The translations under genes were made by a program, and so were the position numbers. This document shows positions 16,411 to 43,933 of a stretch of 43,933 bases of DNA, piece by piece (position 1 is the stretch's first letter; each line of letters starts with the position of its first letter). Origin of the DNA: Planctomyces sp. SH-PL62. Lineage in GTDB: Bacteria > Planctomycetota > Planctomycetia > Planctomycetales > Planctomycetaceae. The stretch covers positions 1 to 43,933 of the forward strand of contig CAMDPX010000035.1 in NCBI GenBank assembly GCA_945905295.1. The letters are read 5' to 3'. The notes beneath the pieces were generated by a model. That model was given only the letters and a program-made list of their open reading frames with translations. It made no database searches and was not told where the DNA came from.

Positions 16411-16481
16411 GGTGAGCAGGGCGGCGTAAGCCCCCTGGTTGGTGCCGGACAAACCGGGGGGCTTACGCCGCCCCGCTCGCC
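16411..16481. repeat. Palindromic repeat, family 1, copy A
   Basis: Left arm 16411-16440 and right arm 16452-16481 match in 27 of 30 positions as reverse complements, with an 11-bp loop. The arms start GG(C/T)GAGC and enclose the G-rich/C-rich core shared with the copies at 37906, 41445 and 43852. It lies between two plus-strand genes. This copy has TAAG where the others have TCAG. Confidence 0.9.
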
Positions 16482-26909: not shown

Positions 26910-27018
26910 TGCCTGCTCCCAACGAAACGAACTTCGACCGGCCCAAAACCGGGCGGGATGTTACTGCTCCGCATTGGTGGAGCAACTCTCCTCGACGGAC
27001 TTCTCTGCCATGTTCCCG

Positions 27019-27090
27019 CCTCTCATTCGCGCTCCGTTTGATTCGCGCGGAAATTTGGCCGCGCGAATCAAACGGAGCGCGAATGAGAGG
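27019..27090. repeat. Perfect 32-bp palindrome between ggt and the SSS gene
   Basis: Left arm 27019-27050 and right arm 27059-27090 are exact reverse complements over 32 bp, with an eight-base AT-rich loop (AAATTTGG). It is the only flawless long palindrome in the window and could terminate the ggt transcript. No other copy occurs here. Confidence 0.92.
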
Positions 27091-27105
27091 CTGGCGGCGG
27101 CTTGG

Positions 27106-37905: not shown

Positions 37906-37983
37906 GGCGAGCGGGGCGGCGTCAGCCCCCCGATGATGTGGCGAACGCGAATGCACCGGGGAGCTGACGCCCGCCCGCTCGCC
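37906..37983. repeat. Palindromic repeat, family 1, copy B
   Basis: Left arm 37906-37934 and right arm 37955-37983 with a 20-bp loop; a few mismatches in the arms compared with copies C and D. It lies just after the DUF1080 stop and is followed by 225 bp of gene-free DNA up to 38208. Confidence 0.9.
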
Positions 37984-40474: not shown

Positions 40475-41587
40475 TCACAGCGAATCGCTCGGCACATACG
40501 GCTGGGCGAGCGGCAGCGCGACGGTGTGCTGGAAGCGATCGGTCGAGGCACTCACCGGGCGCGAGTACCAGCCGTTCGTCACCACCGGCGGATGAAAGTC
40601 GATCGTGATCCGAACCGCGTTGGGCAAACTATTGGACGTGGCGCTGTCCCACGACGTGCCCCAGCTCACACCGTCAAAGTACTCGAACTGAATCGAGGCC
40701 ACTTCCGGCGCGAGCAACTGCGCGCCGGACGCCATCGACGACATGTCGCCCGATTCGTCGGCGGCTTGCATCGCCATGCGATCCCCTTGCAGACGTGCCA
40801 ACCCAGTGGCCTGACCCGTCGCGCTCGTCAGAGAAGAAGAAAGTTGTTGCGCAACTGAGGAACTCGACCCGGCCAAAAAATACATAACCGATTGCAGATC
40901 GCTGCCCGAAAACGCTGACGTCCCGGAGACACTGCCGTTCGCGGTGGACTGCGCCGCCGCGGACAAAGTCGACGCGCGACTGGGCAAACTCAAATGCACC
41001 ACGAGATTCTGCGAGTCTCCGAACACACCCGTCTTCTGCGTCGAATAAGTGTCCGTCGTGGTCGTGCTCGACGAACTGCCGGTCGAACCGCTGCTCGAGG
41101 TGCTCGAACTCGTGTCGCTCGATCCGGTGGTTCCGCCGGACGACGAACCACTGCTGCCCGAAGTGCTGCCGGTCGTGCTACTCGACGAGCTTGTGTCGCC
41201 GGAACTCGCCGATGAGCCGTCATCGGTGGAGGACTGAAGCGGAGAGTCTCGAAACACAACCGAACGGAGATCGGTCTCAATCCTGCGGAACAACGCGCGA
41301 GCAACTTGCGAACGCTCCATCTCCACTTGCCCCAACGCGGACGACGACCAGTGCATCTGCAACGCCGTGTACAACGCGACTAACAGCAAGCTCGACAAGC
41401 CGAGCGCGAGCACCATCTCCAACAGCGTGAAGCCACGCGGCAATGGCGAGCGGGGCGGCGTCAGCCCCCCGGTGGTCGCTGTGCTCGCTGAAAACCGGGG
41501 GGCTGACGCCGCCCCACTCGCCTGAAAGTCAATTGCTTCGCCGACTCGGAGAGTCAGGCTACGGGATGCGCGACGTCGTCGTGTCAT
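40475..41587 (-). CDS. GspJ/PulJ-like minor pseudopilin with a repeat-derived leader insertion
   Basis: 370 residues from the ATG at 41587, overlapping the stop of the gene before it (ATGA). The prepilin signature R51-G52-F53-T-L-L-E57-M-V-L has cleavage after G52 and the Glu at +5. The leader is 52 residues long, far above the usual 6-25, because residues 23-48 are coded by palindrome copy C. The mature domain has a long Ser/Thr/Gly-rich run (about 110-185) and ends in a beta-rich part. It is last in a G-H-I-J order, as in type II secretion operons. No gspK or gspE/F is visible. Confidence 0.8.
   Translation of the reverse strand: MTRRRRASRSLTLRVGEAIDFQASGAASAPRFSASTATTGGLTPPRSPLPRGFTLLEMVLALGLSSLLLVALYTALQMHWSSSALGQVEMERSQVARALFRRIETDLRSVVFRDSPLQSSTDDGSSASSGDTSSSSSTTGSTSGSSGSSSGGTTGSSDTSSSTSSSGSTGSSSSTTTTDTYSTQKTGVFGDSQNLVVHLSLPSRASTLSAAAQSTANGSVSGTSAFSGSDLQSVMYFLAGSSSSVAQQLSSSLTSATGQATGLARLQGDRMAMQAADESGDMSSMASGAQLLAPEVASIQFEYFDGVSWGTSWDSATSNSLPNAVRITIDFHPPVVTNGWYSRPVSASTDRFQHTVALPLAQPYVPSDSL
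41445..41522. repeat. Palindromic repeat, family 1, copy C, inside the GspJ-like gene
   Basis: Left arm 41445-41473 and right arm 41494-41522 are near-perfect reverse complements (one mismatch) with a 20-bp loop. The element is 78 bp, exactly 26 codons, and keeps the GspJ-like frame open, adding a segment that includes G-G-L-T-P-P-R-S-P just before the prepilin motif. Confidence 0.93.
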
Positions 41588-42039
41588 GGCGTGGTCGTCC
41601 CATCGGTCGTGGTTTGTTGCGCGTCGGTCCACACCTGCGGGTCGCGAAGCAACCGACTGAGTTGATAGCCGCTGGCGGACAGCCCTCCCTGCCCCGGATG
41701 CGAGACATTCACGACCAACAGCTTCACGTTCGCGTGTACGTCGCTGGGCAGGACTTTCAGACTCCAAGTCCAAGTGGAGTCATCCTCGAACGGCGTGTCG
41801 GTCGTGTCTTGCAACGGCACCGCACCGGCCACCACTTCGTTCAGTTTCGACTCGCACCGCAGAATCGCCTGAGTGGCCAATCTCGCCTGCACGGAAGCTC
41901 GCACGCCTCCGTACCACAACTGGCTGAGCGCGGCCAATGCTCCGAGAAACAGCCCGAGCGACAACAAGACTTCCAGCAATGTCAGACCCTGTCGCGCTGC
42001 CGACTTTCCCTCGGTCGTTCTGTGAATTCGCCCGCGCAT
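41584..42039 (-). CDS. GspI-like minor pseudopilin
   Basis: 151 residues from the ATG at 42039; the GTG at 42042 is an alternative. The prepilin motif is Q-G18-L19-T-L-L-E23-V-L-L, with Glu at +5 but Leu instead of Phe at +1. The mature part is short and beta-rich. Both neighbours overlap it: TGATG with the gene upstream and ATGA with the gene downstream. Assignment to GspI rests on operon position and length. Confidence 0.78.
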   Translation of the reverse strand: MRGRIHRTTEGKSAARQGLTLLEVLLSLGLFLGALAALSQLWYGGVRASVQARLATQAILRCESKLNEVVAGAVPLQDTTDTPFEDDSTWTWSLKVLPSDVHANVKLLVVNVSHPGQGGLSASGYQLSRLLRDPQVWTDAQQTTTDGTTTP

Positions 42040-42686
42040 CACCGCCTCCGATTCTCGATGGAGGAAACGGTCACGCCACCGGTGAAGCCGCGCACGGCCA
42101 ACCGGATTTGACGATCGCGAGAGTCGATCACCGCCAGTTCGGAATCGATCGCCGAACCGTCCGGCTGAAATGTCATCGGAGCACTCCAGCCGACCTGTGC
42201 CATCTCGTAACCGTTGGACAGCCCAGCCACCATCGCTTGCGGCAAACGCTCGACCGTCAGTGGCACTCCGTTGATGTCGCTAAGGAACAGGATCCCCTTG
42301 GGGAGCTCGCCGAATGACGGCCCCGTCGTCGAACTGGCGGCCGCGTTGTTCGCGGCTCCAGAACCACTTCCGCCGGATGTCGGCGAGTTCGATTCCTGCG
42401 GCGTCCAGAGATAATGGCGACCACCTGGCTCAAAGCGAAACTGCCAAGCGGCACTGGAATCGAGCGCCTTCAGCCTCACGGTCGCGATCTGCGAACGAGC
42501 CCGTTCGGCCGCCTCTTTCAACGGTTGATCAGCCATCATCCGCATCACCGGCGGGAGAACCAATCCGCTGATGACCAACAGCAACGCCAGCACCAACAGC
42601 AACTCGGCAAAGGTGAAGCCAGCGGAACGCAAACTCTCACCGTGCCGAGCACGCAGCGACCACGGCTGTTCGAGTCTGCTCATCAT
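42039..42686 (-). CDS. GspH/FimT-like minor pseudopilin
   Basis: 215 residues. Prepilin motif S-A-G23-F24-T-F-A-E28-L-L, then a strongly hydrophobic helix (L-V-L-A-L-L-L-V-I-S-G-L-V-L). The mature domain resembles GspH in length and has a Gly/Ser/Ala-rich loop near 105-125 that breaks the beta pattern. It follows the GspG gene by about 10 bp. Confidence 0.82.
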   Translation of the reverse strand: MMSRLEQPWSLRARHGESLRSAGFTFAELLLVLALLLVISGLVLPPVMRMMADQPLKEAAERARSQIATVRLKALDSSAAWQFRFEPGGRHYLWTPQESNSPTSGGSGSGAANNAAASSTTGPSFGELPKGILFLSDINGVPLTVERLPQAMVAGLSNGYEMAQVGWSAPMTFQPDGSAIDSELAVIDSRDRQIRLAVRGFTGGVTVSSIENRRR

Positions 42687-42695
42687 GCGTCACCA

Positions 42696-43163
42696 CTAAT
42701 TCTGCGACCAATTGTTGACGTCGTCGGCGGTGTCGTCTTGATGATCCGGTCCAGCCGACCAGATTGCCGGCTTGTCGATGTTCGATTGACGATTGCCCGA
42801 CGCCGGGTACTCGTATCGCAAGGGCTGCTTCCAAGCGTCGAGCGGAACCTTTTCCAAGTACGGTGGTCGCGGCTTCGCGGACTCAGCCGATTGCTCCGGG
42901 GTCATCAGCATCTGAATGATCGTCTCACCGTTGCCCGGGGGAAACTGCCCGTCATGGTCTTGGGCATACATCTTCATGGCGTTCTCGAAGCCGGCGATGC
43001 TGATGCGCGTCGCCTTCTGATTCGCCACTTCCTGCCGGCCGAGCAGGTTCGGCACCACCATCGCCGCGATCACACCCAGAATCGCGAGCACCAACAAGAC
43101 TTCAATCAATGTGAACCCGGAACGGGTGAAACGGCGGGGGGAGGAACGGCGAGCGGCGTGCAT
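42696..43163 (-). CDS. GspG-like major pseudopilin
   Basis: 155 residues. Prepilin motif R-S-G16-F17-T-L-I-E21-V-L-L, helix, then the G-family core with K-M-Y-A-Q-D near 65-70 and a C-terminal acidic loop D-D-T-A-D-D-V-N-N-W, the calcium-binding region of GspG. It is first of four pseudopilin genes in the order G-H-I-J, so probably the major subunit of a type II secretion pseudopilus. ATG at 43163. Confidence 0.92.
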   Translation of the reverse strand: MHAARRSSPRRFTRSGFTLIEVLLVLAILGVIAAMVVPNLLGRQEVANQKATRISIAGFENAMKMYAQDHDGQFPPGNGETIIQMLMTPEQSAESAKPRPPYLEKVPLDAWKQPLRYEYPASGNRQSNIDKPAIWSAGPDHQDDTADDVNNWSQN

Positions 43164-43788: not shown

Positions 43789-43851
43789 GGATCTCTCACC
43801 GCAGGAGTTCGTGACGGCGGAACTATAGCCGGCGCGGCCACACGTAAAACA

Positions 43852-43933
43852 GGCGAGCGGGGCGGCGTCAGCCCCCCGGTCTGGCGGCGAATGTATCGGT
43901 GACTGGCGAATGCACCGGGGGGCTGACGCCGCC
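43852..43933. repeat. Palindromic repeat, family 1, copy D (cut by the right edge)
   Basis: Left arm 43852-43880; right arm from 43914, truncated at 43933 after 20 bp, with a 33-bp loop. The arms equal copy C and the loop end TGGCGAATGC resembles copy B's loop end GCGAATGC. Confidence 0.88.

Follow-up and report, generated by a model that had tools for sequence, protein, structure and literature searches.

Introduction

It is established that palindromic repeats can lie in frame inside protein genes and that REPs can serve as insertion targets. Rickettsia palindromic elements (RPEs) are in-frame palindromic repeats which are tolerated in many conserved protein genes (review PMC2229807). Intragenic REP dimers, formed by REPs of the GTAG/CGTC type, are inverted pairs that code for 20-30 residues within ORFs (Di Nocera et al. 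2013, PMC3733652). A position in linkers or loops was proposed for them and REPs were reported from Planctomycetes, too (PMC3733652). Insertion sequences targeting REPs are a further example of mobile DNA that is specific for palindromic repeats (Tobes and Pareja 2006, PMC1525189). As for planctomycetes, the 2013 REP survey was the only relevant work on in-frame palindromes in the literature searched.

The stretch of DNA analysed here (the window; 43,933 nucleotides, contig CAMDPX010000035.1 of Planctomyces sp. SH-PL62) carries a palindromic repeat, designated family A, inside the leader of a GspJ-like pseudopilin. The source genome is a draft MAG of 8.6 Mb in 476 contigs, from which a sample of 1.64 Mb (19%) was used for part of the element analyses. 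For the study of such repeats, the gspJ leader is especially clear-cut, as the peptide added by the repeat should be removed by the time the protein functions.

The GspJ-like gene and its leader

The features of the gsp cluster and of the leader are as follows, with positions counted in the window and the strand given where one is assigned.

40475-41587, minus strand: GspJ-like minor pseudopilin gene (Pfam T2SSJ, 28.1 bits with a cut-off of 28; TIGR01711, E 5.6e-8)
41584-42042, minus strand: GspI-like pseudopilin gene, leader without palindrome
42039-42686, minus strand: GspH-like pseudopilin gene, leader without palindrome
42696-43163, minus strand: GspG-like major pseudopilin gene (Pfam T2SSG, E 1.3e-13), leader without palindrome
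41584-41587, minus strand: ATGA overlap of the gspI stop and the gspJ start, seen in the genus members compared, G005 left out
41432-41587, minus strand: prepilin leader of 52 residues, predicted cleavage after Gly52 (codon 41434-41432) and before FTLLE
41541-41563, minus strand: single remaining arm of palindrome B, CGTAGCCTGACTCTCCGAGTCGG on the coding strand, matching the B arm library; both arms are kept in G008, G009 and G002
41445-41522, minus strand: family A palindromic element (copy C), identified as inverted repeat and from the ORF, read in frame as ASGAASAPRFSASTATTGGLTPPRSP
41445-41473: arm 1 of element A, 29 nt
41494-41522: arm 2 of element A, 29 nt
41441-41443, minus strand: in-frame TTG, the sole possible alternative start between the element and the cleavage site

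The gspJ ORF begins with the ATG at 41587-41585. Its product shows the traits of a GspJ pseudopilin, namely, a T2SSJ domain at the cut-off, a prepilin cleavage motif, the gene order gspGHIJ and a neighbour with a T2SSG domain. The prepilin N-methylation motif (Pfam N_methyl) was found above its cut-off at residues 51-73, and the alignment with the GspJ model TIGR01711 begins at residue 51. With 32.8 bits, the latter match stayed below the equivalog cut-off of 64.85 bits and the protein is therefore named GspJ-like. An AlphaFold model reached a mean pLDDT of 42 and predicted no structure for the leader. In an alignment of nine GspJ-like proteins, no leader column was invariant; almost every column was conserved from F53 through the helix. 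No palindrome was detected in the leaders of gspG, gspH and gspI wherever these were examined.

The two arms of element A are 97% complementary and 20 nt apart, giving a total of 78 bp or 26 codons. The leader had an inverted-repeat score of 26, while the maximum in 200 shuffles of the leader was 12. The reading frame runs unbroken from the start codon of the gene to its stop codon, and the element contains no stop codon. An earlier note on this DNA had described a 78-bp palindrome that supplies 26 in-frame codons to a leader of 52 residues. Both points were confirmed from the arms and from the minus-strand ORF, and the intact frame supports its statement that a structured repeat became protein-coding sequence without breaking the gene.

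Palindromes in the leaders of related genomes

The leader was compared with nine further genomes of the genus; the relatives named here are MAGs as well. A full palindrome B (GCCTGACTCTCCGAGTCGGG and its complement), which is unrelated to A, was present in the leaders of the close relatives G008 and G009 (32 aa each) and G002 (30 aa). The more distant G010 has a leader of 39 aa with an A-like palindrome; the family of this palindrome is repetitive there, with 31 arms. The leader of G011 (31 aa) contains a third palindrome type with short tandem units that is not a mass family in its genome (7 matches, 3 of them in the leader itself). Leaders without a palindrome were found in G007 (18 aa), G003 and G004 (21 aa each) and G005 (start uncertain). 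The gspJ leader has received palindromes repeatedly.

In the source genome, the B arm at 41541-41563 is followed by 18 nt and then by A, and the loop and second arm of B are missing. A tree of five blocks placed the genomes as ((own,G008),G009),G002 with modest bootstrap values of 86 and 45 (FastTree 0.99 on both). Whatever the exact tree, B most likely stood at the site before A arrived, since three relatives carry B and one B arm was kept here. This order of events is read from one remnant arm; a gspJ site with B intact beside an inserted A was not found. The claim that the element extends the leader to 52 residues holds insofar as this leader is longer than those of the relatives (18-39 aa). 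There was, however, no short ordinary leader before. The net gain is only about 20 codons, because the three nearest relatives already have 30-32 residues with palindrome B and one B arm is retained here.

Family A in the source genome and the genus

The earlier note had spoken of a four-copy palindrome. Four copies do lie within the window, but the core arm pattern of family A gave 673 matches genome-wide compared to 2 for the reversed control. Within the genus, core-arm counts were 577 in G002, 269 in G008, 149 in G003, 0 in G004 and 0-24 in several others. The three other copies in the window are all in non-coding stretches, as had been noted:

16411-16481: family A copy, non-coding
37906-37983: family A copy, non-coding; a different palindrome at the same site in G008
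43850-43933: family A copy, non-coding, truncated where the contig ends

Many other contigs likewise end inside family A and the repeat breaks the assembly.

The sample contained 54 paired A copies with similar arms and differing spacers of about 13-46 nt. Copies have the termini GGCGAGC/GCTCGCC; CGTC occurs only inside the arm and a terminal GTAG or CGTC tag is absent from family A copies. No A arm was located within 1.5 kb of any of the 13 Y1 transposase loci in the genome. Among NCBIfam matches (E up to 0.1), there was no RPE model for GspJ and MurG, and for a third protein none among the matches listed (best 25). Given the missing tag, the missing flanking Y1 gene and the lack of an RPE model match, family A was classed as a palindromic repeat resembling REP dimers; it has a high copy number and is presumably mobile. 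The Y1 transposase genes on L037, L038, L039 and L041 are flanked by other palindrome families (GGGGTCGGG..., CGTAGGTTGGGACTC...), perhaps their own REPs.

Outer inverted repeats around A, which would be a sign of nested insertion, were not above the level of mispaired flanks, and a conserved outer flank was seen in only about a quarter of the non-coding copies. For the paired copies, 102 flanks were compared; another palindrome stood next to A in 3 of these, with no enrichment of REP arms. Nested insertion is thus not the rule for A, as few of its copies adjoin other palindromes.

In-frame palindromes at genome scale

Genes were called with a simple hexamer coding model, for which 469 long ORFs served as the training set, and an A copy was counted as in frame when both flanks were coding and the frame was open through the element. 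By this measure, the 1.64-Mb sample offered 71 A copies for testing, and 19 of them are located in frame within genes. The gspJ copy comes in addition to these 19, since its leader scores poorly in the coding model. The view of the earlier note, that it is a special case among otherwise intergenic copies, is therefore not supported. In-frame copies encode peptides such as GERGGVSPPV...TGGLTPPRSP. In murG (TIGR01133 above cut-off; L086:3592-3666), a 74-bp A copy is in frame between two Pfam domains, and a hybrid kinase has an in-frame A insert between its receiver and Hpt domains. At L149:10807-10897, an A copy is in frame right behind the start codon (MNVKEQST...), and G008 has a short N-terminus there.

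Family A is one of at least 25 palindrome families in the sample. Altogether, 524 strong palindromes were detected in 1.64 Mb and none in shuffled DNA. A strict test placed 73 of the 409 palindromes scoring at least 18 in frame, which extrapolates by area to approx. 380 in the genome. Palindromes still avoid genes about threefold, as 60% of random 75-bp windows passed the same test. A broad mask, by which 121 of 417 palindromes count as coding, was rejected as too loose; 27018-27091 was coding by it, yet this stretch lies just beyond a gene end. The palindrome at this position, perfect and with 33-nt arms, follows closely on the stop codon of a gamma-glutamyltransferase-like gene (ends 27106; named from sequence only) and is possibly a terminator.

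Different palindromes at one site

The first set of sites came from regions chosen only for their several A copies. At the murG site, A is present in the source genome, G008 and G002, and an unrelated palindrome in G009. A DUF1549/DUF1553 gene has A in the source genome, another palindrome in G002 and a weak one in G008 and G009. The hybrid kinase site holds A in the source genome, another palindrome in G008 and none in G009 and G002. One spacer contains A in the source genome and G008 and another palindrome in G009 and G002.

An unbiased comparison of the source genome with G008 mapped 46 sites. At non-coding sites unshared with G008, a different palindrome was found in 12 of 25 cases versus 5 of 58 control positions (p = 1e-4). 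For unshared sites that are coding by the loose mask, the values were 3 of 9 versus 0 of 284 controls (p = 2e-5); when the strict frame test was applied to these three, gspJ alone remained. The gspJ and kinase sites, counted against four unshared sites at which no strong palindrome was present, gave 2 of 6 versus 0 of 284 (p = 4e-4); this set was compiled post hoc. Uneven tolerance of sites, without any exchange, could produce such an excess.

A visible route for palindrome replacement, in a family other than A, is a 93-bp palindromic element with the ends GCTGTGAA...TTCACAGC. It sits centrally in B-type and similar REPs in at least 20 copies. Its target duplication of the MITE type is clear and comprises 9 bp; of 29 candidates, 20 agree in at least 7 of the 9 bases. 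The following copies gave a net gain of 102 bp, with empty sites in G008:

L094:3829-3921: 93-bp element
L093:1191-1283: 93-bp element
L092:19753-19845: 93-bp element

Decay by partial deletion was seen in a BNR-repeat gene, where the source genome has A and only CCCGCTCGCCTGG is left in G008.

Probable origin of the gspJ copy

We consider it likely that A came into the gspJ leader at a site occupied by B, that a B arm was lost and that A is translated and then cleaved off, the leader being a tolerant slot. A is a miniature palindromic repeat of high copy number with the layout of an inverted REP pair and a variable spacer. It would have reached a tolerant leader site already holding B, whose second arm was then lost, and nested insertion may have been the route of replacement. 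With the frame kept and no stop introduced, A would be translated as part of the leader, and prepilin peptidase is predicted to remove the A-containing leader by cutting before FTLLE. The insertion should be cheap because the leader peptide is removed at this point; most likely, it was a neutral or nearly neutral event in a tolerant, cleaved leader. This leader would be one of many tolerant places in the genus, among them other leaders, domain linkers, loops and spacers, in which palindromes turn over.

Chances are about even that the sites reflect independent insertions into a tolerant hot spot, with neither targeting of palindromes nor exchange between them. Independent insertion agrees with the location of in-frame palindromes in leaders, linkers and loops, with the finding that some sites hold no palindrome at all in relatives, and with the sister species G010 and G007, of which the former has a palindrome in the gspJ leader and the latter has none. 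It accounts less well for the gspJ site, re-used while it was occupied (B in three relatives, one B arm here), and for the clear insertion of palindrome into palindrome by the 93-bp element, whose copies mostly show the 9-bp duplication. A bolder version, which we regard as rather doubtful, is that many families compete for the same slots, in-frame ones included, and that new palindromes target old hairpins and replace them with the frame kept. If true, the turnover of palindromes would let proteins trade entire linker or leader peptides.

It is improbable that the hairpin itself is functional, i.e. selected in the gspJ leader mRNA whatever its sequence, for example for tuning gspI-gspJ coupling. 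Strong leader hairpins do occur in six of ten genus members with at least three unrelated sequences, and the RNA folds far more stably (-120.9 kcal/mol) than its shuffles (mean -85.3 kcal/mol, z = -7.9). However, four relatives lack any palindrome, among them G007, the close relative of G010, and a hairpin function is therefore not supported. The same palindrome families also occur in many unrelated genes and spacers. Moreover, the hairpin starts 65 nt downstream of the gspJ start codon and leaves the ATGA junction uncovered.

Little probability is likewise assigned to the reading in which translation starts at TTG 41443, giving MPRG followed by FTLLE, and the element is in effect an untranslated spacer. 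The earlier note had seen no Met between element and motif; there is indeed no ATG, but an in-frame TTG was overlooked, which occupies 41443-41441 and precedes the cleavage site by 12 nt. A start at this codon would fit the poor coding score of the leader and the caution that N-terminal REPs may be extragenic through wrong start annotation (Di Nocera et al., PMC3733652). A real start downstream of the element is nevertheless unlikely, with the ATGA start being conserved across the genus and, by eye, no ribosome-binding site before the TTG, which directly follows the hairpin. Between palindrome and cleavage site, no in-frame ATG, GTG or TTG exists in G008, G002 and G011, and none was found after the first arm in G010, so that these leaders are read through the palindrome. 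This supports real translation, and the leader of the source genome is probably translated from the ATGA start as well.

A misjoin of contigs at a repeat inside gspJ is hardly credible: the draft has 476 contigs, many contig ends including the window's own lie in family A and the inner sequence of the gspJ copy is known from the assembly, but both flanks of this copy stand in the right order on one syntenic G008 contig and the reading frame is intact.

Comparison with known systems

With insertion into a tolerant, cleaved leader as the preferred reading, family A can be set beside the described repeats. It is similar to RPEs in lying in frame within protein genes (19 of 71 copies), and differs from them in its phylum, in being accompanied by about 25 families and in that different families occupy the same coding site in relatives. 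Like intragenic REP dimers, A is an inverted pair that codes in frame; unlike these, it lacks a terminal GTAG/CGTC tag, is present in numerous in-frame copies and shows swapping across species. Two inverted repeats, a short variable spacer and hundreds of copies are shared with REPIN/RAYT systems, from which A differs by the absent tag and by the 13 Y1 transposases, none of which is flanked by A. The 93-bp element resembles the insertion sequences targeting REPs since it inserts specifically into palindromic repeats; in contrast to them, it is itself a short palindrome without genes.

In-frame palindromic repeats had been described from Rickettsia and from scattered genomes rich in REPs. By extrapolation, they concern hundreds of genes here, and in related genomes one palindrome occupies the coding position at which another stands in the source genome. 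The site choice of mobile palindromes and the gain and loss of protein segments in unbroken genes can now be addressed by sequence comparison. As far as the searched literature shows, what is new compared to the known systems is the scale in this genus and the presence of different palindrome families at one in-frame site.
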